From IMG/VR virus record IMGVR_UViG_3300025872_000252, positions 1-27,137 of that record: a DNA stretch of 27,137 nucleotides; one strand, 5' to 3'. Shown one piece after another: positions 1,527 to 25,673 of this stretch (position 1 is its first letter; every line of letters begins with the position of its first letter). The DNA is from a virus. The translations under genes were made by a program, and so were the position numbers. Below the pieces are notes generated by a model that saw only the letters and a program-made list of their open reading frames with translations, was not told the DNA's origin and did not search any database.

Positions 1527-2017
1527 GACTGAGTGTCCTCCCACATAGTAATCCTAATATAGCCTGGGTTTGGCCAATTTTGATTATTTATGGATCCAAT
1601 GGAGACACCACTGGAGTTAAAGTCTGCCCCCTGATCAATATTGTTTAAGGTCAATACCGTTCCAGAAGTTCCTCTAGTAACGGTCATGTGGCATTGACCG
1701 GCACCAGAAACGCCACGAATAATGCGGTTTGTGACGTCTGAGGTTTTGGAGGTATAATTGCGCATGCTGCCGGTAAGCGTAGAAAACACGTTTACAGCAT
1801 TCGTATTGCTATCCGTTGTCTCGACCATGATGTTGCCGATGATAAATGGAGTGGCTGTAGTCGTCTTAGCTCCAGTTCCACCGGTAGTGGCAATCCACTG
1901 GGTCTGCACTGCTGCGCCAGTAGGACTATTCCAAGTGCCATCTCCACGTAGAAACGTGGTTGACGATGGGGTGCCCGTTGCTTTAATCTGTGATGCAGTT
2001 ACTTGTTCAATAGCCAT
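1523..2017 (-). CDS. Tail-fibre tip or fibre-associated protein
   Basis: A 164-aa protein encoded straight after the tail fibre, with a TAATG stop/start overlap and an AAGGGA ribosome site. The N-terminus has the module ATGTPSSTTFLRGDGTW (residues 13-29), a motif found near the ends of many phage fibres just before the C-terminal receptor-binding or trimerisation part. The rest is rich in Thr, Ser, Asn and Gly, predicted beta, and has no motif I recognise. It may be a separate fibre tip, a chaperone-like partner, or the detached C-terminal domain of the preceding fibre. A related motif occurs in the distant fibre gene at 23611-25044. Confidence 0.65.
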   Translation of the reverse strand: MAIEQVTASQIKATGTPSSTTFLRGDGTWNSPTGAAVQTQWIATTGGTGAKTTTATPFIIGNIMVETTDSNTNAVNVFSTLTGSMRNYTSKTSDVTNRIIRGVSGAGQCHMTVTRGTSGTVLTLNNIDQGADFNSSGVSIGSINNQNWPNPGYIRITMWEDTQS

Positions 2018-3447
2018 TACGAAGATCCCTTTGCAAATGCACCATAAACGGGTTGAATAGCCTTGAACTTAAATCCGGCAATACTACCCGAATTTGAAAT
2101 AGATACAGTCAATGTAGAGTTGTCAGCTCCACTTCGCTTCCAAAACATAGTCACAATTGCATTGTTGGCTCCAACTGCAGATTGATGGAAAGACCTATGC
2201 GGTTTTCCTGTTCCAGTAAATACAGTTGTATCTGCTAGGCCGGAACATGTAAATGAAAGTTGAATATATTGATTTGGGTCTGTATCTGTAGTTGCATTAT
2301 AGACAGGAACCGTTAGAACAGCCGATCCGACATTTGCAATTCCAGTGTTAAATATAGCCGCAATATCGTTGTTTACACCAGATGACGTTGCGGAGATAGT
2401 AGAAGTAGTAGCGGATTGAACAGTGTCCACATACGACTTATTTGCAGCATCTGTGGAAACCGTCGGAGTAGCCAGCGACGTGATCTTGTTGGATCCCATG
2501 CTGATGGCTGCCGTAGCAGACGCCATCTGATCAAGACGGTTTGTTCGAACCTGGGTATCAAAATTGGAGATCTTGTCTGCAGTCAGGGTATTCCAGGCCG
2601 TTGCTCCGGAAGCTGTGATCAGAACCTGACCATTAGTAGCACTGGGGTTGATCTTATCTACGGTTACGGCGTTTGCCTGAATGCTGCTGTTGAATACCGA
2701 ATTTGCGGTAAGAATAGCAGCGACGGCTCCTTCGTTGTATGCCAGAAGAATCTGATCGTCGGTAAGCGGAGCACTGGTAAATGAGATTAGTCCCGATCCA
2801 ACGGTGTAGTGGGTATTGGGACGCTGGCGAAGACCGTTGACATAAACCTCGATATCGGATGCGTCAGTAATTGAACTAACTGCAGCCGGAAGCGAGAAAT
2901 CAGTAGTCGAGGAATCTCCTGTATAGACAAGAGTTCCAATACCAGACAGAACAGCTGGAAGGGCTCCAGAGGTAGCCGCCTGAAGTTGGTTTAGGTTTAC
3001 GGCATCTGTTCCACTGACAGCCGTAGCCAGATTACCAATTCGACGCCCCTGGGCATTCCACTGCCCATCTACCCCCTTGACCATTGCATCGTTGGTAAGA
3101 TCAGTGGCTTCCTGAATAAGGTAGAAAAGCTGATTGCTGTCAAGATCCAGCAACTCAGAAGTAACATTGGTGGAATCAATGTAATCTACATACCGTGCAT
3201 CTGCCTTTGTCTCGCGGACAATTCGCAAGGTATCTGTGTTAAAGATAGAAGCTACGGTGTCAACCTCTTCATTGATGAGATCAAGAGTATAGTCCGTAGT
3301 GATTGTCAGCAGCGTTCCGTTCTTGTATACCTTAAGCTGCGTGGCAATAGATTCGGTGTCGGCGTCCAGCAGCTCCACCGACCCGTATGAAAACGGGCCG
3401 GTGGTGCCGCCGACGGTTCCGACATATTCAACATATGAATATGCCAT
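2017..3447 (-). CDS. Tail fibre protein, T7 gp17-type N-terminal anchor
   Basis: About 476 aa. Residues 1-155 match the pattern of the T7 gp17 tail-attachment domain: a KVYKNGTLLTITTDYTL strand region, then RYVDYIDSTNVTSELLDLDS, then GQWNAQGRRIGNLATAV, aligning with T7 LVDFTDGSIL...LDARGRRIVNLANAV. A second beta module (about 170-245, VYVNGLRQRPNTHYTV) repeats the same style of fold. The middle contains SLATPTVSTDAANKSYVD, common in fibre shafts. I prefer ATG at 3447 because GGAG lies eight bases upstream. The ATG at 3453 gives two more residues but is only two bases from that site. It should mediate adsorption. The C-terminal receptor domain is not recognisable. Confidence 0.88.
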   Translation of the reverse strand: MAYSYVEYVGTVGGTTGPFSYGSVELLDADTESIATQLKVYKNGTLLTITTDYTLDLINEEVDTVASIFNTDTLRIVRETKADARYVDYIDSTNVTSELLDLDSNQLFYLIQEATDLTNDAMVKGVDGQWNAQGRRIGNLATAVSGTDAVNLNQLQAATSGALPAVLSGIGTLVYTGDSSTTDFSLPAAVSSITDASDIEVYVNGLRQRPNTHYTVGSGLISFTSAPLTDDQILLAYNEGAVAAILTANSVFNSSIQANAVTVDKINPSATNGQVLITASGATAWNTLTADKISNFDTQVRTNRLDQMASATAAISMGSNKITSLATPTVSTDAANKSYVDTVQSATTSTISATSSGVNNDIAAIFNTGIANVGSAVLTVPVYNATTDTDPNQYIQLSFTCSGLADTTVFTGTGKPHRSFHQSAVGANNAIVTMFWKRSGADNSTLTVSISNSGSIAGFKFKAIQPVYGAFAKGSS

Positions 3448-3449
3448 TG

Positions 3450-6400
3450 TCATTGCTCCATGTCAGTACCGAGCATAAGTCTCGAATACCACGTATTGAA
3501 TAGGGGGGTGTGACTGCTGAAGAACGAGTAGTCCCGCTCTCCTGTCTTTTCATCGCTGAACAAGACACGGTTGAACTGATTGAACGACTGGATCATCGGA
3601 CCAAAGATGTTGTTTCCTCGCATGGACATTCCGTAATCGCTGGAGAACGAATTCACCACCGACAGAGCTGACGAATGATGCGCACCCAGCCACGGGGACT
3701 TGATCGCATTGCCCATCACGAACTTGACAGGATCATCGTTCCAATCCTGTTCCATCTTGTCTAGATCCGATTTACCCGTGGCGATTCCTCGCACGGATTG
3801 ATAGATATTCTCACCAAGCATTACGGCTGCAAACGTGGCAAGCATTGTTGCCATTCGGCCATTGGCCGCTGTCCTGAATGCCACGTTGGTTGCAAACGAC
3901 CTGCTGTAGCTGGTGAGGTTATAGAACATCTTGTCAATGGCCGACCGTGATTCAACGGACGACGCCAGACTTGAAGTAGGAACGTGGAAATTATGAGCCG
4001 CAGTCAGGTAGTCCATCATGGCGCCCATGGTTCGGTCGTCAACACGACCACGCAGAGCACCAAGATTAAAGACCTGTTCCTGTCCCGCCAACCCATTTCG
4101 AAGGTTCCTGATCACATCTGGAACAAGGAGACCTGAATGGTTCATCTGCAGTGCAACATCATGAGGAAGTCCGGAGTCAGCAGCGGCTTGCTTGAATGCA
4201 CGCCTTGCCGAATCTGTATTCTCAGCGACATTGCCAATGCGTTCCAGTGCAGTAGCCATTCTCTCCATTGCATCAAGACTACGGCTGACAAACCGCTTGG
4301 CCTGTCGATCCGCAATTACTCGAGCAATTCCTGAGAAATATTGCATACCTCCAGCACGCATTCCTGTTTCTCCGAACGCCTCGGCAGCTGCAACAATGGA
4401 TCCTGAGAGTCTACCCATTGGAGTTCCTCCATTGGTCAGTACCTCAGCTCCGGTAGCCACATGCCAGAATCGTTCCCACGGAGCAATGAATCGTTCAGTG
4501 ACTGATGTTCCGACAGACGATCCAAACGCAGAGTGAGCATAGGTGGAATACTGATCCGTTGCGTGAGCAATGTCTTCAATTGCTCCAAGATCGTTAGACG
4601 TACGAATAGCGTGTAGTGCGTCCATGAATCCATGCATGAAAGATCCGCCGTACATCTTTGCTCCCCAGATTGCCCTGGGAACCTCAGTAGTAAGACCTGC
4701 CATGCCCCAGAACGATCCGGCACTGCCACGAACAATTCCAGTAGATACCCGCAGTGCGGGATCCAGGAATTCATTGTGATTGTACTGTGCACGTCCTACG
4801 TGGTAGTTCCACTTTCGTTCAAGACGATCAACACCACGGTTGAACTCCGCCCTGACGGATGAATCGGTAATTGTAAGCGAATGCTGTCGCATTGCCGCAA
4901 TGACGTCATCAAACGTAGAAGGAGAACCAACTGCTTCAGAAAGCTGCGCATCAAATAGAATCTGCGGAGCTCTGACTTCCATGTAGATCTTGTGCTCTTG
5001 GACAGGAGATCCGATATACCAACGCCTTACGGCTGGATTATTGGCCACCTCATCTTCAAGCGAACGAGCAGACTTAGACCTGGGAGTGTTGGATGCACGA
5101 CGGTATCCAACGCCATTTTCGGTAATTCCATTCGTCAATCTACTAATAGTTTCGACTGCCATTTCATTTGAATAAGTGGTCAGTCGTGCAGCATATGTGG
5201 CCTGATCCTCAGGAGACAATGCAGACCACGACGTTCCACGTGCAATGCCGAATTCATCGGCAAGTTCATTTGGAATGGCGTTTCCGGAAGTACGGATACG
5301 TTCAGCATATGCGTTTGCAAAGTCAGCCTGCGCTTCCTGCTGACGAGCAAGAATCACATTGCTGTTTGCCTCTCGAGGACGATAGTTCTCACGGCTGACT
5401 CCTGGGTGCGAAATTTCCAGACGCGCACCAACCTCGTCGTAGTGACGACGGAGGATGTTGTGCATCTCCAACTCACCTGGAGTAAGGCCAGTGGTAACTC
5501 CTGTGTCAAGAGCATTTTGAATGTTGGCATCAGACATCGTGTTAAGATGTCCATTACGAATAGCCCGTTGTTCTGCAACAGCAAGTTCGTTGACCGCAAT
5601 GCGGCCACGATCCCTGAAGTTCTGCAGAGTACGCAAGGATCCGTTGTTGAATCCGAGACTCTTCACAAGAGCCTCGGGACGATCCAACATGTTGAATGCA
5701 GCTACCATCATGTCCAGAACTCGACTGGAATTATGAATGTAGCCGAATCCGGTTCCGGCGGCCTGAGCCCGGAACAAGGCGCGTCCTAGACCACGAAGGG
5801 CCGGAATGCGACCCATGGACATCAACACTCCGTTTGTAATTACAAGGCGTTCCCCAGAAGATTCCTTTGGAAGAAGCTTCTCGAGAATAGTAGATGCCTT
5901 ATCGGGAGCATCTGCCTCTACCTTGCCACCGACCTTGGTTGTTTCCTTGGTCGGCTTGGAAACAGACAGACCATCAGCAGCATCTGAAACAGCGGCGTTT
6001 TCATACCTGACACCCTGTGGTGCTGCGGCTGCAGCGCGAGCTGCGGCCACATCGGCATCCGATTCCAGTACGGCTTCCAGCTGCTGCTGATCGCTCATTG
6101 CCCTACGGGCCTTGATATCAGCTTCAGTTACAGCAGCGGATGGCTTCTTAGAAGGCATGGTTGGCTTTGTCGGCAGTGCCGCCGCTGCCGTATCTACTCC
6201 TTCTCGAACAGCAACATCCTGAGCAGCGGCCTCAGCCACTGAATACTTAACATTGCGTCCATCCATAGTGACAGTCATAAGGGTTTCCTTAGGACGTCCT
6301 TCTAGGGCTGCACGTTGATTCTTTATGAAGAAATCCTCGAGAGCAGACCACCTAGGAAGGCGGTTTGCATCTCCATACTTCGCATAAAGCCTACGGTTAA

Positions 6401-12180: not shown

Positions 12181-12711
12181 TTAGACTTGAATGCCCTGAG
12201 CACGGGCGACGGCACGGTTGATGTCGAGACCCTGCTGACCTTGCATCAACGACATGCCCATTGAAAGACCCTGCAATCCTCCCTGGATTCCAGAAAGAAG
12301 CATAGAACTCTGAGGAGCAACCTGCCACTGAGGCATTGCGCTGATAGACAAATTCTGCATATTGAGACGCTCTTCAAGAGATATACGAGCGGACTCACGG
12401 GCTGCTTGGATTCCAAGACTGGATGCAAGCGCCTGTGTGCTCCTACTGTTTGATACACCACGCTCTGCAGCTGACGCCTCAAGAGCACCGCGATAGGCAT
12501 CATAGCGACCCTGCAGTTGACGTCGCTTTTCCAAGGCAGCAATAGCTCCCTGTTCGCGGCCGACCGCAAGCGTCTTTTCATAGGCCAACTTTTGTTGGCG
12601 ATTTTGATATTCGGCTGCTTCCTTGGCCTGTTTATTGGAATATGCCGCGCTACCAACAGAAGCAGCGGTAGTTGCAGCAGTAAGAAGAATAATTTCTGGT
12701 GCAATAGCCAT
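12181..12711 (-). CDS. Internal virion protein (gp14-like)
   Basis: A 176-aa protein with a hydrophobic N-terminus (residues 4-24), then a Gln/Ala/Arg/Glu-rich helical region and a Gly/Met/Gln-rich C-terminus. This architecture matches T7 gp14 (196 aa), which is ejected and forms the outer-membrane part of the DNA channel. The GVSNSRSTQALASSLGIQAARES segment is comparable to the short conserved GxSxxR...E block of gp14-type proteins. The ATG overlaps the stop of the tail tubular B gene by one base (TAATG), so the two are translationally coupled. A homologue of T7 gene 13 between these genes is absent. Confidence 0.8.
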   Translation of the reverse strand: MAIAPEIILLTAATTAASVGSAAYSNKQAKEAAEYQNRQQKLAYEKTLAVGREQGAIAALEKRRQLQGRYDAYRGALEASAAERGVSNSRSTQALASSLGIQAARESARISLEERLNMQNLSISAMPQWQVAPQSSMLLSGIQGGLQGLSMGMSLMQGQQGLDINRAVARAQGIQV

Positions 12712-14846
12712 TATGTACTCGCTGCGCTTCTCTTGCCTGGGACAAAATCTACTACAAACTCAAGACCAGTCACATTGACAGGAGCGGGACTATCAGACTT
12801 GATGAACAAGTCAACGTTTCCGCTGCTACCCATGATCTTGAAATTATGCATGTCTTTGTCAGACAACGTATTTTGATTGGTGATGAACCCAATGGCTCCT
12901 AGGCTCTTTCCGGTGTACTTGTATACACGATCTGAGGCAGGAGACGTCCGAGGATCAACGGTGAATGTAAAATAACCAGTGTTACGATGATAGACGGAGC
13001 ATTGCTTTAGCTGCAGCGCTCCTACGGCTGGAATGTTCTGCTGATCCCTGATATATTGCTTGGACATCTTCACAAGCATGTTAAACGAAACGCCGATATA
13101 TACAGGATGAGCATCAAGCTTTCCTGTGACCACAATATCCGTGTTGGTGCCATCCGTAGTGACGCTAAATGGAGCGTACCGTACACCTTCCTGATTACCC
13201 CACGCTGATCCAAGAAACACTGAATCAATGTCTGGAACCATGAAAGGAACGGTGAACGTAGTACGCTTGGTCGTTCCGTTGAACACCCCTCCGCTTGCCT
13301 CTACGAATAGATCAAACCTGGGAGTATAAGACGGCAACGCATCTGAATGTCGCAAAGGAATTCGTTCAAGCCGATATGTCTGGAAAGTACCAGTGTCGAT
13401 TTGAGACAACACGTATAGATTGTCATCAATAACGTGCATTCCGACAATGGTCCTGGTAAGAATATCGGGATCATCCTGGAATGACCAACTTGTCCACGCT
13501 GATTGAATCTTGTTAGTACCCTGCCAGAACATGAAGTTCACGTAGAACTCAGTAGCAGTGCGCATCACAAGAATATCGTTGGATGGAGATGCCTTTAGTT
13601 CAAGAATACCACTGGGGATGAATCCATCTACATGAGCTGCCGTATCCGTTGCCGACGACTGAGCGGCCCCTTCATCCGTAATGTATTCATATACCTGAGA
13701 ATTAGGACCCTTTGGAGCCGCCCAGTAGAGCTGAGATCCAATCACCGACGGTCTAATTACAGGGGAAGCGTATGTTGTAGACGGAATAACAGATACCGTA
13801 GTCGGAGTCAAGGCGTCTTGGGCCCGGATCTCATACTGCTGGCCATTCTGAGTGAATACAACGATGCTGCGCTGAAAGGAAGCCATCCACAGAATCTCAG
13901 TAACCTGAGACGATGACAACTTTACATCAATCGGATCTGAGTCGACAACGCCAGCATACGAATCCAGCCAGAAGTTGTAGAAGTCACCAACCGCTGATCC
14001 AACGACATTCTCACCTGAACTGAACCACAACCTATTTCGATGCACACAAACATCGGTAATAGTACCGCCGACAAACGACGGTCCTGGGTTGGTCAGGCTA
14101 TCTCCGCTGAATCGCGGAACCCACGGAATGTGGCGGACTTCGAATGAATTAGAACTTGTCTGCACAATGATGATAGGAGCGGTTGTCTTGTCAATGGTGG
14201 AATCCACCATTGGAGTCTGAACGCGCTGGTACCATGGTTGAGTGGTAATAGAAATTGACTGGTACCATCCGGATGGATGTCCAAGTGCATCGTTCTGTGC
14301 ATACCAATATTCACTGATAACGCTAGGAGGAAGATTAAATTCTTCCCACGATGCCTTGTTGTGGGCATTACCGGAAGTATCTACAGCGGTTCCACCAAAC
14401 GTGTAACTAAGTGCAGTAGTTGGAGCAAGATCAACAGTAACAGACTTATTGACGACAATAGTAGTATCGTCAATAGTGACGGCTCGAATGTTGGAACTTG
14501 AAGTATGCAGATAGTCCTTGAGGGCATTCTGTTCCGCAACGGTACCAACATAAGTAATGGTACAGTTAGCTCCATTGAGATTTCTGATATGAAGAGGAGT
14601 ACTAGGATGATCATGGAATTCCATGATGAACCTATCCGTACTACTTCGTTCAATCCAGTGGACAAAGATATCCGCTGCAAGATTAGGAAGATCTGCAACC
14701 AAGACTGAGCCACAACGCTTCTCCATGCCCCTGCTCAGGTGCAAGAATACATTGTCGGCTTCCTCTACCTGGGTCGGAAACCGCTGTCCATCTGGCTGTC
14801 GCGATACTCCACCAGTAAGATCCGGAATGACAATGCGCTGAAGCAT
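12711..14846 (-). CDS. Tail tubular protein B (nozzle)
   Basis: A 711-aa beta-rich protein in the position of T7 gp12 (794 aa), which forms the tail nozzle. The N-terminus, with the opening IPDLTGGVSRQPDGQRFPTQ followed by EEADNVFLHLSRGMEKRCGS, is the hallmark start of this family (T7 gp12 also has a GGVSQQP-type sequence). The middle reads as blade-like beta repeats with VCVHRNRLWFSSGENVVGSA and FTQNGQQYEI, also typical. The start ATG overlaps the tail tubular A stop (TAATG) with AAGGA upstream, so production is coupled. It should assemble below tail tubular A on the portal and act as the exit gate for DNA. Confidence 0.92.
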   Translation of the reverse strand: MLQRIVIPDLTGGVSRQPDGQRFPTQVEEADNVFLHLSRGMEKRCGSVLVADLPNLAADIFVHWIERSSTDRFIMEFHDHPSTPLHIRNLNGANCTITYVGTVAEQNALKDYLHTSSSNIRAVTIDDTTIVVNKSVTVDLAPTTALSYTFGGTAVDTSGNAHNKASWEEFNLPPSVISEYWYAQNDALGHPSGWYQSISITTQPWYQRVQTPMVDSTIDKTTAPIIIVQTSSNSFEVRHIPWVPRFSGDSLTNPGPSFVGGTITDVCVHRNRLWFSSGENVVGSAVGDFYNFWLDSYAGVVDSDPIDVKLSSSQVTEILWMASFQRSIVVFTQNGQQYEIRAQDALTPTTVSVIPSTTYASPVIRPSVIGSQLYWAAPKGPNSQVYEYITDEGAAQSSATDTAAHVDGFIPSGILELKASPSNDILVMRTATEFYVNFMFWQGTNKIQSAWTSWSFQDDPDILTRTIVGMHVIDDNLYVLSQIDTGTFQTYRLERIPLRHSDALPSYTPRFDLFVEASGGVFNGTTKRTTFTVPFMVPDIDSVFLGSAWGNQEGVRYAPFSVTTDGTNTDIVVTGKLDAHPVYIGVSFNMLVKMSKQYIRDQQNIPAVGALQLKQCSVYHRNTGYFTFTVDPRTSPASDRVYKYTGKSLGAIGFITNQNTLSDKDMHNFKIMGSSGNVDLFIKSDSPAPVNVTGLEFVVDFVPGKRSAAST

Positions 14847-18140: not shown

Positions 18141-18903
18141 TCTTGGTGTATCCAGTGATGCGAACGCGTTCCTGAACATAGTTCTGGTATTCGCTATCGT
18201 ACTTGTAGCGAGGATCTCGCATGGCAGCAACCATTTCCTTACTGCTGGCAAACGGCTTAATTCCGGCTGGAACCCCAGAAGATCCGACGATGCGGTTCTT
18301 TGGCTCTGGGTTCTGCATGTTGCGGCGGGTCTTTAGACCCAGCAGCACATTCTGCCATCCAGGTTGCTTCAACGACGCATTGACGGCTGCGCGTTCATCT
18401 TCCTGCAGGTTGTCGGTGGCCCATTGGATGATCTTATTCAACTCCTCAGGGCCACCGACGACACCAGCCGCCTCGGTCGCTAGCTGACGCTGCCTAGCTC
18501 GGATTCCATCAACATAGGTATCTAGGATCTGGTCGGGAATGCCGAACCGTGCCTTAATGGCCGTCTTAGTATCCTGGCTGAGGTTTCCGGTGCTCGAGAC
18601 CTCCATGCCCCACTTGTTCCACTCATCTTCGGAAAGTTGAGTCGGCTTCTCGGGGATGTTAAGGTCATTAGGCGTAGAAACTTCCTTTTCGGGAAGTTGG
18701 TCCTGAGATTCGATCTCAGGAGGGGTGTTTTTCTTTGCTTGCTGAAGCTTGGTGATCTCGGATCGCATATCCTTCCAAGACTTGATGAACTTCTCAGGAT
18801 CTCCCTTGAACTGCGGAGGCAGACTTCCGGGATTGCTTCGTGCAAACGTCTCGACGTTGTTAAGGTCAACGTCAACCTCGGGGGTATTTTCAGTTTCGCT
18901 CAT
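18133..18903 (-). CDS. Capsid assembly scaffolding protein
   Basis: A 256-aa, acidic, helical protein in the T7 gp9 position, right after the portal. The N-terminal half is rich in Glu, Asp and Pro. The C-terminus carries MVAAMRDPRYKYDSEYQNYV followed by a basic tail, the pattern of gp9-type scaffolds (M-x-DPRY-x-x-D-x-x-Y-x-x-x-V), which binds the shell protein. The start overlaps the portal stop as ATGA, with AAGGTAA upstream. It guides prohead assembly and is expelled before DNA entry. No protease domain is evident. Confidence 0.92.
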   Translation of the reverse strand: MSETENTPEVDVDLNNVETFARSNPGSLPPQFKGDPEKFIKSWKDMRSEITKLQQAKKNTPPEIESQDQLPEKEVSTPNDLNIPEKPTQLSEDEWNKWGMEVSSTGNLSQDTKTAIKARFGIPDQILDTYVDGIRARQRQLATEAAGVVGGPEELNKIIQWATDNLQEDERAAVNASLKQPGWQNVLLGLKTRRNMQNPEPKNRIVGSSGVPAGIKPFASSKEMVAAMRDPRYKYDSEYQNYVQERVRITGYTKND

Positions 18904-20462
18904 TGATTGTTACCTTGCATGGCGGCCTTGGCTCCTGTTTCAGCCATAGAACCAAGACTGCTGATCATCTGCTCAGAAGCCATAGCCTGAATGGATTGCT
19001 GAGCTGCTTCCTGTTGCTCTTCCTGGAGCTGCTGAGGTGTCTTGACAAGACCCACAGGTTCCAGACCAAAGCTCGAGGTCCACTTGATTGCCCATCCATA
19101 CCAGTCGATATACGGCTGAACGGCTTGCATTTGTCCGACCATTACAGCCCACTGAGAGAGTTGACTATTGGTCACTTCTCGGTTGAGAGCCTCTAGTCCC
19201 GTTCGAACCTTAAGATTCAATGGGCCCTGTCCTTCGACAAGCTTGAGGATCTCCGACGGAACAAGACGGTCTCGACCCATCAGAACAAGAACACGCTTGA
19301 CAATTGGAATCTGGATATCACGGGCAATGCCGCTGAAGATTCCACCGAGGGTCTGGTCGAGTTCCTGAGCCACCTCGCGGATTTCCGTGGCGGTGACGCG
19401 ATCTCCGGTGCGCTGCACGGAAGACTGCAGTAGAAACGTACGACCGAGCTGTTGGGTTAGGTCTGCCCGAAGAGCAGCCATGGGCCCAAGATCAATCTGC
19501 TTAAGCAGCTGAATTGGAAACACGTCTACCTGTCGGGCTGGAACAAAGTCACCGTTTTCGGTGTCCTGTAGATCGGCCACCTCGGTAATGCCGGTTGGGT
19601 CAATTCCAATACGGAACTCGGAGTTGGCGACAGAAGCTTCGACCAATGCCTTGGTGATGGCTTCCAACGTTCGGATATCGCCAATATGCTCTTCAACCAG
19701 CGAACGGCCGTAATCCTCACCAGCGATTCGCGACCACACCTGAGGAACGTAGGGGCAGATGTCATACGTGCCACTGTCCACCTGGACGCCGCAGTATTCC
19801 TTTTCCACTTCCCACTTCTTGGTGTCTTCGTTCCATTCGATTTCAGTGAAGAACGGCTTGTGATCCGACGATGGACCATCGCTGTTCTCGTACTCTGATT
19901 CCATCTTATCCGTCTCGGGCCAATCCTCCGGAACAGCATCGGGATCAACCCACTCTCGCAGTATGATTCGCTTGACGCGTCCATCTGGATACCGCTGCAC
20001 GACATATTGATCAATGCGGTGCACCCTAAACGAATATTCGTCTACAATCTCAAACAACGCGTCGCCGCAGATGATGAGATGCTGGAATAGAACAAACAAC
20101 TCCTGACGAAGATTTGTGGACGACAGCTTATCCATAATCTTGCGATCAAGACGGGAAAGCTGCGCCATGGTCTGGGTAGGGTCAGCACCCTCGGGAACAA
20201 AGGCCTGATCCAACTCAAAGTTGAAGAATGGGGCCTGGTTCAACGGGTAGATAGCAGAGACCATCCTAGAAGCCAATGCCATGACGCCTCGGGCAGGTAG
20301 ACTGCTGTATACGTCTGGAAGTTCCATGGTCTCCGTGAATCCCTCTTCAGGATACAAACCAGGAACCGTAAGACGAGCGCAATCTTGTGCTCGCTGAAGT
20401 TTATTGGCTCGTCGGCTGTCCAACCGATCGAACTCAACTTCGATTTCACCTTTTTGATTCAT
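18900..20462 (-). CDS. Portal (head-tail connector) protein
   Basis: A 520-aa protein comparable to T7 gp8 (536 aa), the dodecameric ring at the DNA vertex. Family features: a basic helical N-terminus, RAQDCARLTVPGLYPEEGF followed by YSSLPARGVMALASRMVSAI (T7: RAQNCAQYTIPSLFP...ARGLNNLASKLMLALFP), VHRIDQYVVQRYPDGRVKR, and TATEIREVAQELDQTLGGIF, which is near-universal in podovirus portals. The C-terminus is Gln-rich (QQLQEEQQEAAQQSIQ), typical of the barrel/crown. The ribosome site is weak (GGATGCAAC), and the stop overlaps the scaffold start. Confidence 0.95.
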   Translation of the reverse strand: MNQKGEIEVEFDRLDSRRANKLQRAQDCARLTVPGLYPEEGFTETMELPDVYSSLPARGVMALASRMVSAIYPLNQAPFFNFELDQAFVPEGADPTQTMAQLSRLDRKIMDKLSSTNLRQELFVLFQHLIICGDALFEIVDEYSFRVHRIDQYVVQRYPDGRVKRIILREWVDPDAVPEDWPETDKMESEYENSDGPSSDHKPFFTEIEWNEDTKKWEVEKEYCGVQVDSGTYDICPYVPQVWSRIAGEDYGRSLVEEHIGDIRTLEAITKALVEASVANSEFRIGIDPTGITEVADLQDTENGDFVPARQVDVFPIQLLKQIDLGPMAALRADLTQQLGRTFLLQSSVQRTGDRVTATEIREVAQELDQTLGGIFSGIARDIQIPIVKRVLVLMGRDRLVPSEILKLVEGQGPLNLKVRTGLEALNREVTNSQLSQWAVMVGQMQAVQPYIDWYGWAIKWTSSFGLEPVGLVKTPQQLQEEQQEAAQQSIQAMASEQMISSLGSMAETGAKAAMQGNNQ

Positions 20463-20474
20463 GTTGCATCCAAT

Positions 20475-22493
20475 TTAGAGACCAACTCGCATTGTACTGT
20501 CAATGAGATTGTTTCTCCAGCTATTGCTATCCCACGTTGATCCAGCGCCTGGAGTGTTTGGCGGCCTGGAGTTCACGCACATTACTTGAAATACATTACT
20601 AAGCCATTCTGTCAGCGTGGTGTAATCAACAGCAGTTGCTGGATTCCAGTTTCCTCTGATATTATCGTTGTAGAACGCAATTGTCGCAGTAGTCCACAAT
20701 CCACCTGTATAGGCATTTGGATTAGCGTCGAATGTAGCTTGATTCCACGTGGTAAATGATGTACTATCAGTTGGATTAGCATACCAAACCAAATAATTAC
20801 AAGCATTTTGACCTGTTCCTACTCCGCTGTAGTTACCAGTACCGACATCTATTTCATTGTATCGGTGACCCATGAACCAATCAGGAGTGATTGCTAGGGT
20901 GTAGAAGCCACGTCGACAGATACGATCATACCATGGCTTTGATGTATCTCCGCTTCTCCACTTGTAATCCTGGATCAAATCTGCGATTTGACAGAGATAG
21001 TTGTACCTAAAGTGCGGGGTGTATCCTGTATTACCAAACGGAACAAGGAACATATCACGCTGTTGAGTGTTTGTTTTTACAATGGACTCTACACCAAATG
21101 GTACCTTGGTCCAGTCGGTTACATATGAACCGTTCATCAAATGCACCCAACCAGCATCTCTGTTATTCAGCGACGCGTTAAACGTTGTGTTGGTATCTGG
21201 ATTGGAGAACCAGTCATACTGAGCATCTCCAAGCCATCCACCAAATCCATTCTTTGATTCCGATCCAGGGGTTCCGGTATAAGTTGCTGTTTCGTTTCCG
21301 ACAGATCCAACTGTCTTATACTTGTCGGGACGCGACTCGCATAGACACGGAACACCGCTTTCATTCAGTCTGGAGATAATATAGTAATCGGCTAGTTCAC
21401 AGAAATCTGTTTTATAGTTAAGCAACTTTTTCCAGTTGGGATCTGCTCCACCGCCAGGAGAAATACTACGATATAAATGAACAGTCGAAGGACTGGCCGA
21501 GAGAGCCGAGGCGTCTACATTGACTGAAAGAATGCCTTTCCCAGGGGCCCCCTTACACGAAACAATATTATTGATTGTTCGATCAATATGAAATTTGACC
21601 AATATATCGCCAGCAGCTGGATCTCCTCCTGCTTCTTCCCAGACCCTGTGCATTTCCTGACGATAGGCGGTATAAGATGAACAGCCATTCATATATAGAT
21701 GGATGTTCAATGGCTCTGTAATTGGCGTACGGCCATTTAGTGGAGTTGGGAATGTTCCATTGACAAGTTGTTTAATGGCTTCCCAGAAACCCTTCCATAA
21801 GCAAGCGGCTTGAAATGGGTTATTTCCACCGCTCCCGGTAAAATTGAACTGCCACTCAGATGGAGTCCCAAACCACGATGAATGTGACGTAATATCCGTT
21901 TCATTCATTCGATAGCCGCCAAACGGCATATAGAATTGAAACGACCGGAATCCAATCTTATAATCCTCGTAGATCAGTTCATACAAAAGATTGTGCCACG
22001 GACTGGTCGTGGTTGGACTCGATGGATTGAAATCGAATCCAGACGCAGGATTGGTAAACAAAGCGTTGTTAGGAGCAACGTTGTTGCCAAATGCCCGTAC
22101 ACGATCCACAGCATCAGCCTGTCCGTTGGCTGCTGCCGGAATTGACACAAACCGTCGAATAGCTCCCTCTACCCACCTAGGAATATTCAAGGTAGTTCCA
22201 TTACCAAGAGGACTACCGATCAACTTCAACGAGTAAAGCCTACTGTTGAGATCGGTCGCCATCTTCTTATAGTGCAGCGATTCCGGAGTAGCGGAATTAT
22301 TCAACACAGCGTATCCGTTTCCACCCCTGCTGGCAATTGCATTAAGGGCTTCGGCGGCTGCGGTGTATGAATCAAACTTCCTTACAAACTTGTTGTTGAT
22401 CTTCAGGATACAGCCAGAAGACGTCTGCACAATATCGTGGCTGTAGATAGCCGTATTAGGAAATGATCCTACTGATGCCTTGAATTCATTCAT
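20475..22493 (-). CDS. Large aromatic-rich protein of unknown function before the portal gene
   Basis: A 672-aa protein I do not recognise. The first 65 residues look like a small beta/alpha domain (IVQTSSGCILKINNKF, then a Tyr/Ala helix). The rest is very rich in Trp, Tyr, Phe, Asn and Gly, with recurrent strand-like segments that end in polar or acidic residues: FRSFQFYMPFGGYR, LNIHLYMNGC, ILVKFHIDRT, ILSVNVDAS, ADYYIISRL, GVPCLCESRPD and FYTLAITPDWF. That spacing is compatible with a (beta/alpha)8 barrel of the glycosidase kind, but this is inference. It has no TM segment. It sits where T7 has only small genes (7, 7.3). It has its own AGGA ribosome site. A virion or carbohydrate-active role is plausible. 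Confidence 0.7.
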   Translation of the reverse strand: MNEFKASVGSFPNTAIYSHDIVQTSSGCILKINNKFVRKFDSYTAAAEALNAIASRGGNGYAVLNNSATPESLHYKKMATDLNSRLYSLKLIGSPLGNGTTLNIPRWVEGAIRRFVSIPAAANGQADAVDRVRAFGNNVAPNNALFTNPASGFDFNPSSPTTTSPWHNLLYELIYEDYKIGFRSFQFYMPFGGYRMNETDITSHSSWFGTPSEWQFNFTGSGGNNPFQAACLWKGFWEAIKQLVNGTFPTPLNGRTPITEPLNIHLYMNGCSSYTAYRQEMHRVWEEAGGDPAAGDILVKFHIDRTINNIVSCKGAPGKGILSVNVDASALSASPSTVHLYRSISPGGGADPNWKKLLNYKTDFCELADYYIISRLNESGVPCLCESRPDKYKTVGSVGNETATYTGTPGSESKNGFGGWLGDAQYDWFSNPDTNTTFNASLNNRDAGWVHLMNGSYVTDWTKVPFGVESIVKTNTQQRDMFLVPFGNTGYTPHFRYNYLCQIADLIQDYKWRSGDTSKPWYDRICRRGFYTLAITPDWFMGHRYNEIDVGTGNYSGVGTGQNACNYLVWYANPTDSTSFTTWNQATFDANPNAYTGGLWTTATIAFYNDNIRGNWNPATAVDYTTLTEWLSNVFQVMCVNSRPPNTPGAGSTWDSNSWRNNLIDSTMRVGL

Positions 22494-22505: not shown

Positions 22506-22916
22506 TCACCAATCAAATGGATTACCAAAGTTTCTGGCAACCCCACCTAGATAGCCGCCAAGACCATCGTTATTGTGACGACGCTTCTTTGGAAGCTCTG
22601 GTTGAGTGTAGTTTAGTCCAAGATTGGGGGCTGAGAACCACGAAAGGTCCGCATGACGCTTGCCTTCGTACTTGGTAGGGTCAAACGTCGGGTCAAACTT
22701 GGCCGGAATGAAGAGACCTGCACTATCCATGGGAGCCCAGTCCTTATACTCGAACGACGATCGTGCTCCGTCTGCTCCGCTGGCAATCGTTTCGTATGAG
22801 GCAACGCGTTCGATGAATAGTCGTCTTTCATTTTCAAACTTTACTCGTTCGGCTTCAATATCGGCCTCGGTCTTGATCTGAGCCTTACTTGGGCCCTTGG
22901 GCATTGAGGTTGGCAT
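22506..22916 (-). CDS. Hypothetical protein, 136 aa
   Basis: Function unknown. The N-terminal half is a charged helix (ADIEAERVKFENERRLFIERV), the centre is acidic/aromatic, and the C-terminus has a basic patch KKRRH followed by a Gly-rich, aromatic tail (GLGGYLGGVARNFGNPFDW). The ATG at 22916 has an AGGTAAC ribosome site nine bases upstream and overlaps the preceding gene by 32 bp in another frame. An in-frame ATG at 22904 is a weaker alternative. It lies in the portal-proximal accessory block, and a minor head-tail assembly role (like T7 7.3) is possible by position only. Confidence 0.65.
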   Translation of the reverse strand: MPTSMPKGPSKAQIKTEADIEAERVKFENERRLFIERVASYETIASGADGARSSFEYKDWAPMDSAGLFIPAKFDPTFDPTKYEGKRHADLSWFSAPNLGLNYTQPELPKKRRHNNDGLGGYLGGVARNFGNPFDW

Positions 22917-23082
22917 TAGTTACCTGCCTTTCAGCAAGAGCCTTCAAAGTAGTGACAACACTGTATTGACCTGACCTGAAATCAATGTCCCGTAGGTCGA
23001 TTCCGCGAGTATCCATTACAGGAGTAAATCGCTGTTCCAGGAACATAAGCAACTCCTTTGAGATATGGGGAGTGGTGGTCAT
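22885..23082 (-). CDS. Hypothetical small protein, 65 aa
   Basis: A short protein with the pattern ISKELLMFLEQRF near the N-terminus and IDFRSGQYSVVTTLKALAERQ near the C-terminus. Small proteins with an SxELLxxLE..F and a GQ.SVxxxL block are common before the portal gene in T7-like phages, but no function is known to me. The start overlaps the preceding stop as ATGA. No TM or signal peptide is visible. Confidence 0.65.
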   Translation of the reverse strand: MTTTPHISKELLMFLEQRFTPVMDTRGIDLRDIDFRSGQYSVVTTLKALAERQVTNANLNAQGPK

Positions 23083-23543
23083 TTGAGTCTTGTCGCCTTG
23101 CTAGAGCTCGATAATTGTTTGAATAGTGTTGGTGAGGTGTGTGCGTCTACGTCAAGCCCCATTGACATCAGGATATTGGAAACAACCCTGACACACGCGG
23201 TACGTTGGGGTCTAAATGACACAAGACCGCTGTCAGCGGCCCTATGCCAGAATTCAGTCAGAAACAGCCACAGCGGACTGCTGGCTACATGGCCATCGCC
23301 AAGTAGCATTGCCAGTTCTATACTATGATTATCCGGGGTAATCTTAAAGGAGTGGACTGTAAAACGACCTAGATGACGTTCCACCGCCGCTCTGGTATGC
23401 CACTTAGAGGGCTGCCCAGCCGGAACCAGTAGGTAATATTCCCCATATAGAAGACCTACATGTACGGGTTTAAAGCCTTGAATGACCCCCGAAGCACGAC
23501 TAAGAGAGTCCTTAAGGTCTATAAAGTCTACCCTAATATCCAT
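23079..23543 (-). CDS. Unknown protein, possible permuted papain/NlpC-like thiol enzyme
   Basis: A 154-aa protein. Two blocks stand out. PVHVGLLYGEYYLLVPAG (His28) resembles the HVG-strand around the catalytic His of circularly permuted NlpC/P60 (YiiX-like) proteins. The block ACVRVVSNILMSMGL (Cys117), followed by HTSPTLFKQL, resembles their late catalytic Cys helix. If right, His28 and Cys117 would be the active pair, giving a small amidase/peptidase. No signal peptide is seen. The start has AGGA seven bases upstream, and the end overlaps the next gene as ATGA. It follows a 67-bp gap that may hold a promoter. Gene call is good; enzymatic role is a weak inference. Confidence 0.65.
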   Translation of the reverse strand: MDIRVDFIDLKDSLSRASGVIQGFKPVHVGLLYGEYYLLVPAGQPSKWHTRAAVERHLGRFTVHSFKITPDNHSIELAMLLGDGHVASSPLWLFLTEFWHRAADSGLVSFRPQRTACVRVVSNILMSMGLDVDAHTSPTLFKQLSSSSKATRLK

Positions 23544-23610: not shown

Positions 23611-25044
23611 TTACAGGGCCCGGACAAACACGGCTGGGACGTTACCGTTAGCCAGATCCGCTGTAGCGGTCGGGGTGGTCGTAAAGTTCCTCCATGTATT
23701 GAGAGTAACTCCAGTATGTCGAATCAAATTGAACTGATTGGCCGCAGTAGGATCGTTGCGCAAGCAAATGGCTCCAGTTGATGCAATAGCCCTGAGAGTA
23801 GGCTGAGTACCTGTGTTTGAGGCTTGAAGGCCAAACCAGTATTGCTTACCTTGTGAAAGTGTATAGGAAACCGTAACGGTCCTGGTTCCTGCGGTACTGG
23901 TTGAAATACTGCCAGAAGTCAGTACCGGAGCTCCAGTTGGCCAGCCATTTGCACCTGACTCGTAAATAGCAACTGCACAGTTGTTAGTTTGAGTGGTTGA
24001 CACATTAACAGCCAGCTGATCAATAGTTAGATTCTTATGGCAACGATATGGGGTATAATATGCAGTTGCGGCAGTCAACGCGAGGGTTGTAAACGCATCA
24101 TTCTGAACATTAGTTGTTTCATACCAGGTGCTAAGAGGAAGCACACGTGGATAGGAAAATGGAATCGACCATGTATTGTTTCCGCACAGGTAGGTGTCTT
24201 CCATTGGGGTTCCTGTAGCGGATAGTTCAGTTACACCAATAACAGCGGCATCAATATTCCATACGGTACCACCGGAAGAAACAGTAATATCACCCTTATC
24301 GCCGTCTGATACTCCACCGGATATAGAAGCCCACGTGCTGTCTCCGCGCAGAAACGTAAGAGAACTGGCTGATCCAGATCCAAGCCTGGCAGTATCTATC
24401 GTGCCGGATGTAATATCCGAAGTGCTGTGAACATGCGCAGTTGGAGTTCTTGAATCTGATAGACGACTATCGTTGCCAATGCAAACAGTAGATGCTGTCG
24501 ATCCGGTTGGAATCTGAGCTATATTAAAGGTACCGGAAGTTACATCAGAAGCGGCATGAACGTGAGCTAACGGAGTACGAGCATCAGATAGACGACCGTC
24601 ATTTCCGACGCAAACGGTAGAAGCGGTGGTTCCGGTTGGAATTCTGGCAATGTTAAAGGTACCAGAAGTTACATCTGCAGTAGTATGGACATGAGCCAAA
24701 GGAGTACGGGCGTCAGAAAGTCGACCGTCGTTTCCAATACAAACTGTAGAGGCTGTCGTTCCAGTCGGAATCTGGGCAATGTTAAAGATTCCCGATGTTA
24801 CATCTCCAGCCACATGGGTATGTGCCAACGGAGTACGAGCATCGGTAAGACGCGCATCGTTTCCTTGGCACACTGTACCCGCGGCTGTTCCAAAATTAGC
24901 TGCAATGGTTCCACTGGTGGTAATGGTACCTCCAGTAAGACCACTTCCTGCTGTTACCGATGTTACCCCTCCGCCTGTGGTTCCAGCTGCCTTTTTTGCG
25001 ATCTTTTCAATTTCATTCTGCTCAAGTCTATTGAACTGACTCAT
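23611..25044 (-). CDS. Repeat-containing tail fibre or spike protein with HxH motifs
   Basis: About 477 aa starting at ATG 25044, which overlaps the kinase stop as ATGA with GGAG eight bases upstream; an ATG at 25068 lies inside the kinase gene. A short helical N-terminus (FNRLEQNEIEKIAKK) and a Gly/Thr-rich linker precede four tandem 43-residue repeats (about 57-228) of the form TVCxGNDxRLSDARTPLAH-x-H. The repeats are followed by FLRGDSTW and a second ATGTP...NNTW module, then a beta-rich C-terminal domain of about 190 aa. HxH pairs recur at 75/77, 118/120, 161/163 and 204/206; in T4 gp37 such pairs bind iron along the trimer axis. The T7 gp17 anchor domain is absent. Confidence 0.82.
   Translation of the reverse strand: MSQFNRLEQNEIEKIAKKAAGTTGGGVTSVTAGSGLTGGTITTSGTIAANFGTAAGTVCQGNDARLTDARTPLAHTHVAGDVTSGIFNIAQIPTGTTASTVCIGNDGRLSDARTPLAHVHTTADVTSGTFNIARIPTGTTASTVCVGNDGRLSDARTPLAHVHAASDVTSGTFNIAQIPTGSTASTVCIGNDSRLSDSRTPTAHVHSTSDITSGTIDTARLGSGSASSLTFLRGDSTWASISGGVSDGDKGDITVSSGGTVWNIDAAVIGVTELSATGTPMEDTYLCGNNTWSIPFSYPRVLPLSTWYETTNVQNDAFTTLALTAATAYYTPYRCHKNLTIDQLAVNVSTTQTNNCAVAIYESGANGWPTGAPVLTSGSISTSTAGTRTVTVSYTLSQGKQYWFGLQASNTGTQPTLRAIASTGAICLRNDPTAANQFNLIRHTGVTLNTWRNFTTTPTATADLANGNVPAVFVRAL
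24361..24876 (-). repeat. Four tandem 129-bp coding repeats inside the fibre gene
   Basis: Four units of exactly 129 bp encode 43-residue modules with nearly the same protein sequence, while many third codon positions differ between units. They encode the metal-motif (HxH) shaft of the fibre. The last unit is the most diverged (TPTAHVH, TARLGSGSASS). Confidence 0.9.
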
Positions 25045-25673
25045 GACATAATCTCCATGTCTAGCCAAGCTGGTGCAAGATGATCTACTAGTTCTTTAAG
25101 CGTCTGCTCGCCGTGATGATTGGTAATGTAGTAATCAAACACATCCGGAAGATGACCATATGTATACATCATGGCCATCTTTTCAGATTCGTGCATGCGC
25201 CACTTGGCTCCCATATCCTTTAAACGTGATGCGCCATCTACAAATATCGTTGTTCCACCAAGGTCTGTGATTAGTTCAAGTTCGTTTAGATATCGCATAT
25301 CATCGAATATAATCACATATTCCTTGAACTCTCTGTTCCATTCATACTTATCCATGTGCATGTATTCTGCCTTTTCGGCATCGGCAAGACGTGCAATGGT
25401 CTTAATAGAGCGGTTCACCCAATAATCCGGACCCGTTATACCTGGCTTATAAGCGGGATCACGTCTAGACTCTCCCCACCTTTGAAGAGTCTTTCTGTAT
25501 AGTTCTGGATTAGTATCCTTGGATAAACCTATACGTTTAGCCGCTTCCTTCATAGGCTGGGCAAAAGACATTATGATTGGCTTTAGATCGTGATCCATGC
25601 ACCAATCATGGAGCAATCTAGCCGCAGTCGTCTTGCCTCCCCTGGCTACCCCAGCAAATGCTACGATAATCAA
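25041..25673 (-). CDS. Deoxynucleoside monophosphate kinase-like P-loop protein
   Basis: About 210 aa. The P-loop GVARGGKTT is at residues 8-16. Downstream are MSFAQPMKEAAKRIG, the LID-like RRDPAYKPGITGPDYWVNR, YVIIFDDMRY (Walker B-like) and FVDGASRL, an arrangement seen in phage dNMP kinases (T4 gp1 family). It would convert dNMPs to dNDPs for DNA synthesis. I chose TTG at 25673: it overlaps the ThyX stop (TTGA), has AGGAGA six bases upstream, and puts the P-loop at the usual distance from the N-terminus. An ATG at 25700 would add nine residues read within thyX. It works after ThyX in the same pathway. Confidence 0.82.
   Translation of the reverse strand: MIIVAFAGVARGGKTTAARLLHDWCMDHDLKPIIMSFAQPMKEAAKRIGLSKDTNPELYRKTLQRWGESRRDPAYKPGITGPDYWVNRSIKTIARLADAEKAEYMHMDKYEWNREFKEYVIIFDDMRYLNELELITDLGGTTIFVDGASRLKDMGAKWRMHESEKMAMMYTYGHLPDVFDYYITNHHGEQTLKELVDHLAPAWLDMEIMS

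Follow-up and report, generated by a model that had tools for sequence, protein, structure and literature searches.

The DNA analysed here, a stretch of 27,137 nucleotides that we call the window, is the T7-type late region of an uncultured T7-like virus of bacteria. The gene under study, p672, lies on the minus strand, as do the other main genes of the window (Table 1). Their order runs from the end of the DNA polymerase gene through ThyX, a dNMP-kinase-like gene, the phage-tail-repeat gene g485 and genes for 154-, 65- and 136-aa proteins to p672. It continues with the portal, scaffold, capsid and tubular tail proteins A and B (gp11/gp12 type), followed by internal proteins, a gp17-type tail fibre and terminase. 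The names portal, g485, nozzle and fibre are based on homology, and the remaining genes are named by order and sequence reading. A preliminary description of this DNA had assigned p672 to a portal-proximal slot, and 12 bases indeed separate its stop codon from the portal ATG. The same description noted that p672 is as large as a tail nozzle. This likeness is moot, because the phage has its own gp12-like nozzle gene as well as its own fibre gene, and p672 is neither. The gp17-type N-terminal attachment domain (PF03906) is absent from p672 in Pfam searches.

Table 1. Features of the window in and around p672.
Feature	Position	Strand	Basis or remark
p672, 672-aa ORF	20475..22493	(-)	ATG at 22493, TAA ending at 20475; ORF, translation
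p672 N-terminal domain, aa 1-90	22224..22493	(-)	tblastn 38-42% between three podoviral proteins
M1 module, ~aa 106-672	20475..22178	(-)	HMM and BLAST matches to L032, L056, L057
Codon of D327 (SVNVD)	21513..21515	(-)	invariant in 6/6 sequences, modelled strand end
Codon of E386 (PCLCES)	21336..21338	(-)	invariant in 6/6 sequences, modelled strand end
Portal (T7 gp8-like), directly downstream of p672	18900..20462	(-)	Pfam PF12236 E 3e-50; PHROG 449 E 1e-120
136-aa gene, directly upstream of p672	22506..22916	(-)	kept in all relatives covering that place
154-aa gene (g154)	23079..23543	(-)	p672 directly behind g154 homologue in L006/L031
g485, several phage-tail repeats	23611-25068	(-)	PHROG 2012, E 4e-52
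gp12-like nozzle	12711-14846		PHROG 457
gp17-type fibre	2017-3453		PF03906 E 2e-17

The interval first given for the 672-aa reading frame is exact, and its strand is the minus strand; the plus strand of the same interval carries 20 stops. That p672 is coding is beyond doubt, because 200 shuffles of the window give a longest open frame of 268 codons (mean 172) and because codon positions 1 and 2 are kept far above position 3 between homologues (53/59/31%, 50/56/34% and 56/64/36% identical at positions 1/2/3). This pattern is as for a protein under purifying selection. The product was rightly called aromatic-rich: its F/W/Y content of 13.4% and W content of 3.3% are the highest among the 21 window genes tabulated, and Asn, Gly and Thr are abundant besides. 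The GC content of the gene is 0.45 against about 0.50 for the window, and the corresponding values for its two podoviral homologues are 0.62 in 0.615 and 0.52 in 0.54. Composition thus fails to support a recent foreign origin, since GC tracks the gene's own genome in all three podoviruses.

Two other genes upstream of p672 have features of their own. In the product of g154 and its relatives, a motif of the VH(V/L)G type is kept together with a (T/S)C further on; by eye the protein resembles a permuted papain-like hydrolase (NlpC/P60 or YiiX type), and it has no Pfam or PHROGs match. The g485 gene is the most variable of the T7-like clade (20-63% identity) and probably encodes the main variable tail or adhesion protein.

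Searches of Pfam, PHROGs, NCBIfam, PDB sequences, INPHARED, PLSDB and GTDB genomes return nothing credible for p672, in agreement with the preliminary statement that it has no recognisable family. Searches detect no relatives in the sequenced bacterial and archaeal genomes of GTDB or the plasmids of PLSDB, the family is absent from the named phages of INPHARED, and literature searches yield no described phage protein that fits. Apart from copies of the phage in the window, seven more records in IMG/VR carry the family, and these amount to four additional phage types and five additional distinct sequences. Two of the types are T7-like and belong to the clade of the window's phage: L006/L031 (41% identity to p672, with DNA 99.7% identical to each other) and L009/L010 (37% identity). 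The three relatives in T4-like contigs are 26-32% identical to p672. One of them (26%, E 1e-34) belongs to L032, a contig that encodes a T4-type major capsid protein and what we read as a UvsW-like helicase. The others (32%, profile E 1e-90) are on two related contigs, G001/L056 and G002/L057, which we read as T4-like from their DNA polymerase, RecA-like and helicase/primase genes. The p672 family is tiny, undescribed and common to T7-like and T4-like viruses.

Comparison within the family divides p672 into two parts. As the preliminary description had suggested, there is a separate small N-terminal domain (about 90-100 aa); it is common to the T7-like proteins of the window, L006 and L010 and is absent from the three T4-like relatives. 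The remainder, M1, recurs in the T4-like contigs as a module of about 550 aa within proteins of 1136-1363 aa, where it is joined to a second module, M2, that is likewise new. In the 1363-aa protein of L032, M1 occupies residues ~221-756 and is followed by M2, whereas in L056/L057 the order is reversed, with M2 first and M1 last. The assignments in L056/L057 are based on 32% identity for M1 (E 2e-63) and 24% identity for M2 (E 9e-25). An origin of M2 as a duplicate of M1 is ruled out (hhalign probability 0.1%), and M2 has no match in any podovirus record.

p672 is an optional, fast-diverging late gene that has been relocated within the T7-like clade. It is absent from 15 relatives that each contain the complete junction between the 136-aa gene and the portal and whose portals are 76-90% identical to that of the window. 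In the window and L010 it lies between the 136-aa gene, which forms the left border of this slot, and the portal; the slot used in L006/L031 is the one between the 154-aa and the 65-aa genes. The flanking DNA of L006 and L020 is 91-93% identical on both sides of the latter site, which measures 2071 bp in L006 (p672 and the last third of g154) and 143 bp in L020. At L006:1294-1566, and likewise in L031, the g154 frame continues past its lost stop codon and overlaps the start of p672, which is read in a different frame. The carriers of p672 are not a single clade on the portal tree, and their distribution needs three changes, at least two of them forced. Where portals are 89-93% identical, p672 proteins are 38-46% and g154 proteins 41-45% identical, a turnover that is otherwise equalled only by the tail-repeat protein g485. 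Because GC tracks the genome and divergence resembles that of g154, an old presence with repeated loss and relocation fits these data as well as repeated gain does.

The two slots and the clean presence or absence between genomes that are 91-93% identical would also suit a selfish gene that moves between intergenic sites in the manner of a homing endonuclease. Such a gene might have a NUMOD1-like N-terminus, and residues 31-51 of p672 do match NUMOD1 with 18.0-19.7 bits. This score is below the 22.8-bit cut-off, however, and L006 and L010 show no match. No HNH, GIY-YIG or LAGLIDADG domain is present, T4-like phages have the remainder of the protein fused to the large unrelated module M2, and GC matches that of each phage and not of some foreign source. 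We consider a selfish gene very improbable on these grounds, and a homing endonuclease proper is ruled out by a sub-threshold NUMOD1 match in one of three homologues and the lack of a nuclease domain.

The T4-like relatives occur in two different settings. In L032, the M1 protein is encoded directly behind the T4-type major capsid gene, and its first ~100 aa are weakly similar (E 0.4-6) to the N-termini of large phage tail proteins. The matches include an 'adsorption associated tail protein' of Rhizobium phages, whose gene lies a few genes after baseplate genes. Stenotrophomonas phages contribute VrlC and a DUF4815-containing protein, and a cyanophage contributes a VrlC-like protein. Where a match carries a functional annotation, this nearly always names a tail or virion protein, and the similarity lies at the very N-terminus in both targets checked. 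These similarities weakly suggest that L032, alone among the relatives, has a tail-protein-like N-terminus. The 732-aa gene behind its M1-M2 gene (L032:5575-7773, plus strand) has by eye the look of a polysaccharide lyase (heparinase II/III type, GHTHRDAGQIS), and no Pfam, PHROG or PDB match backs this reading. In L056/L057, the M2-M1 gene is near replication and metabolic genes, and no recognised tail gene lies beside it. Two genes away lies a gene whose 250-aa product begins with what resembles a signal peptide and contains a type I dockerin (Pfam E 7e-6; L057:13569-14321 and L056:5319-6071, both minus strand); a 270-aa outer-membrane-like gene comes after it. Dockerins seem to be uncommon in phages.

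The second of these settings is compatible with an enzyme that is made late, remains outside the particle and acts in the infected cell or is freed at lysis. It might, for example, prevent the trapping of progeny by degrading released surface polysaccharide, or modify the host surface against superinfection. The lack of a gp17-type attachment domain or any other fibre signature, the fact that the gene is optional, and the metabolic, outer-membrane-protein-like and secreted-looking dockerin genes near the L056/L057 relative all agree with such an enzyme. We nevertheless hold it to be rather unlikely, as the L032 module is encoded after the major capsid gene in one protein with the tail-protein-like N-terminus, and the window gene sits in a structural operon.

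The six family sequences share 51 invariant columns. Among these are S164-P-W-H-N, E172, R183, P190-F-G, D304, D327, D363, E366, D369 and E386. Twenty-three invariant residues are of types D/E/H/R/K/Y, including a DxxELAD stretch, even though the six sequences are very divergent. The preliminary description had singled out four segments as strands ending in polar or acidic residues. Two of them, SVNVD (D327) and PCLCES (E386), are invariant at modelled strand ends, but the other two do not hold up: the better model places the invariant D304 of VKFHID in a helix (homologue residues 273-292), and the family does not keep AITPDW.

Structure prediction offers a partial view of the fold. AlphaFold2 gives a mean pLDDT of 32.9 for p672 as a single sequence and 36.6 for a four-sequence alignment with the L006 homologue as query. 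The latter model rises above noise at residues 157-354, where pLDDT is mostly 40-83 with a dip to about 30 at 311-330, and the rest is below 50. This region contains four helix-strand units, which would fit half a TIM barrel at most or, equally, a Rossmann-like sheet. The TIM-barrel-like core proposed earlier is compatible with these units but gains nothing from two further results. Foldseek searches of the L006 model against PDB and BFVD find nothing at E<=0.001, and a test for conservation enriched behind the modelled strands, used as a probe for a barrel, is negative (p about 0.5). A barrel fold for p672 is accordingly a conjecture. The weak Foldseek matches are mixed (ChoE, GH6 cellobiohydrolases, esterases and kinases), and neither whole proteins nor pieces match a TIM-barrel glycoside hydrolase family in Pfam or NCBIfam or by sequence in PDB. 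The GH6 lead is not significant, comes from a low-confidence model and has no Pfam GH6 counterpart; a GH6 profile finds no match in the window and none in control genomes either, which makes it a weak search.

The absence of a recognisable catalytic motif, the fast divergence and the adjoining portal might instead indicate a decoration, neck or adhesion protein without enzymatic activity, whose alpha/beta domain would only bind a glycan or receptor or strengthen the head-tail junction. The 23 invariant D/E/H/R/K/Y residues, with D327, E386 and DxxELAD among them, are more than a purely binding surface usually keeps. Furthermore, p672 cannot be needed for the junction, because the 15 relatives without it have much the same portal. 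A purely structural or adhesive role therefore seems unlikely.

The reading that we prefer is that p672 is a virion-associated accessory acting on host surface polysaccharide, which we regard as a real possibility that falls somewhat short of probable. Its weight comes from the genomic setting, the turnover and the L032 fusion. The p672 product would be built into or onto the virion in the tail or neck region, with the N-terminal domain (~100 aa) docking it to the particle. The C-terminal ~570-aa M1 would adopt an alpha/beta fold in which D327 and E386 end neighbouring strands, and it would bind, and perhaps hydrolyse, capsule or exopolysaccharide. This action could open a path for the fibre and the ejection proteins, so that p672 would serve as a glycan-cleaving or glycan-binding accessory to an ordinary T7-type tail fibre.

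Several observations argue for this accessory role. The gene shares its strand and tight spacing with the structural operon, between the 136-aa gene and the portal; it comes and goes between close relatives, uses two slots and turns over fast; and M1 lies behind the capsid gene and a weakly tail-like N-terminus in L032. The high aromatic, Asn, Gly and Thr content, the four modelled helix-strand units with two strands that end in an invariant D or E, and the gene for a secreted-looking dockerin protein nearby in L056/L057 point the same way. Against it, there is no significant sequence or fold match to a glycosidase, lyase, lectin or receptor-binding protein, the model gives any confidence for only about one-third of the protein, and conserved positions do not cluster behind the modelled strands. 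The L056/L057 gene has replication and metabolic genes nearby and no recognised tail gene next to it, and the tail-like N-terminus is found at E 0.4 or worse and in L032 only. Virion presence, a carbohydrate ligand, catalysis and a barrel fold are each things that we infer. The late-operon position, the optional gene and the N-terminus of L032 make a virion, receptor or glycan role plausible, and the glycosidase or receptor-binding protein of the preliminary description stands as a best guess.

Should p672 be a glycan enzyme or adhesin carried by the virion, it would belong to a depolymerase or receptor-binding class without sequence similarity to known ones, and it would be a host-interaction determinant that present annotation pipelines miss. 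M1, together with M2, might even constitute a new fold family of phage-borne carbohydrate-active modules that T7-like and T4-like viruses exchange and attach to differing virion anchors, an undescribed class of non-beta-helical depolymerases, although we find this broader proposal doubtful. L006/L031 and L020, closely related phages with and without p672, provide a natural comparison. If p672 is an ordinary accessory enzyme, its interest would be limited to one more small unknown phage protein family.

Among known systems, the GH6 cellobiohydrolase Cel6A is one of the less bad Foldseek matches of the partial model (probability 0.3-0.4), but with E 0.4 or worse and a TM-score of about 0.13-0.25 on a low-confidence model it is not significant. 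The large VrlC/DUF4815-type tail proteins of T4-superfamily phages have N-termini weakly like the first ~100 aa of the L032 relative, whereas p672 does not have that N-terminus and M1 itself is not similar to them. Enzymatic tailspikes and virion-associated depolymerases (reviewed in PMC5380687), such as P2_41 of the T7-like Vibrio phage Peru-2 (PMC13320782), are likewise large, variable late podovirus proteins presumed to act on host surface sugars. P2_41 forms a trimeric beta-helix and has an N-terminus of the gp17 type (PMC13320782); p672, in contrast, has no gp17 domain, shows an alpha/beta pattern and precedes the portal, and the gp17-type fibre is a separate gene. In T7, the stretch upstream of the portal holds the virion proteins gp6.7 and gp7.3 (PMC11784390), which share with p672 the class of genomic position and late expression. 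Unlike p672, they are ~88-99 aa, have an assembly or ejection role and show no similarity to it. The 65- and 136-aa genes of the window would be better candidates for gp6.7 and gp7.3, as judged by size and place only.
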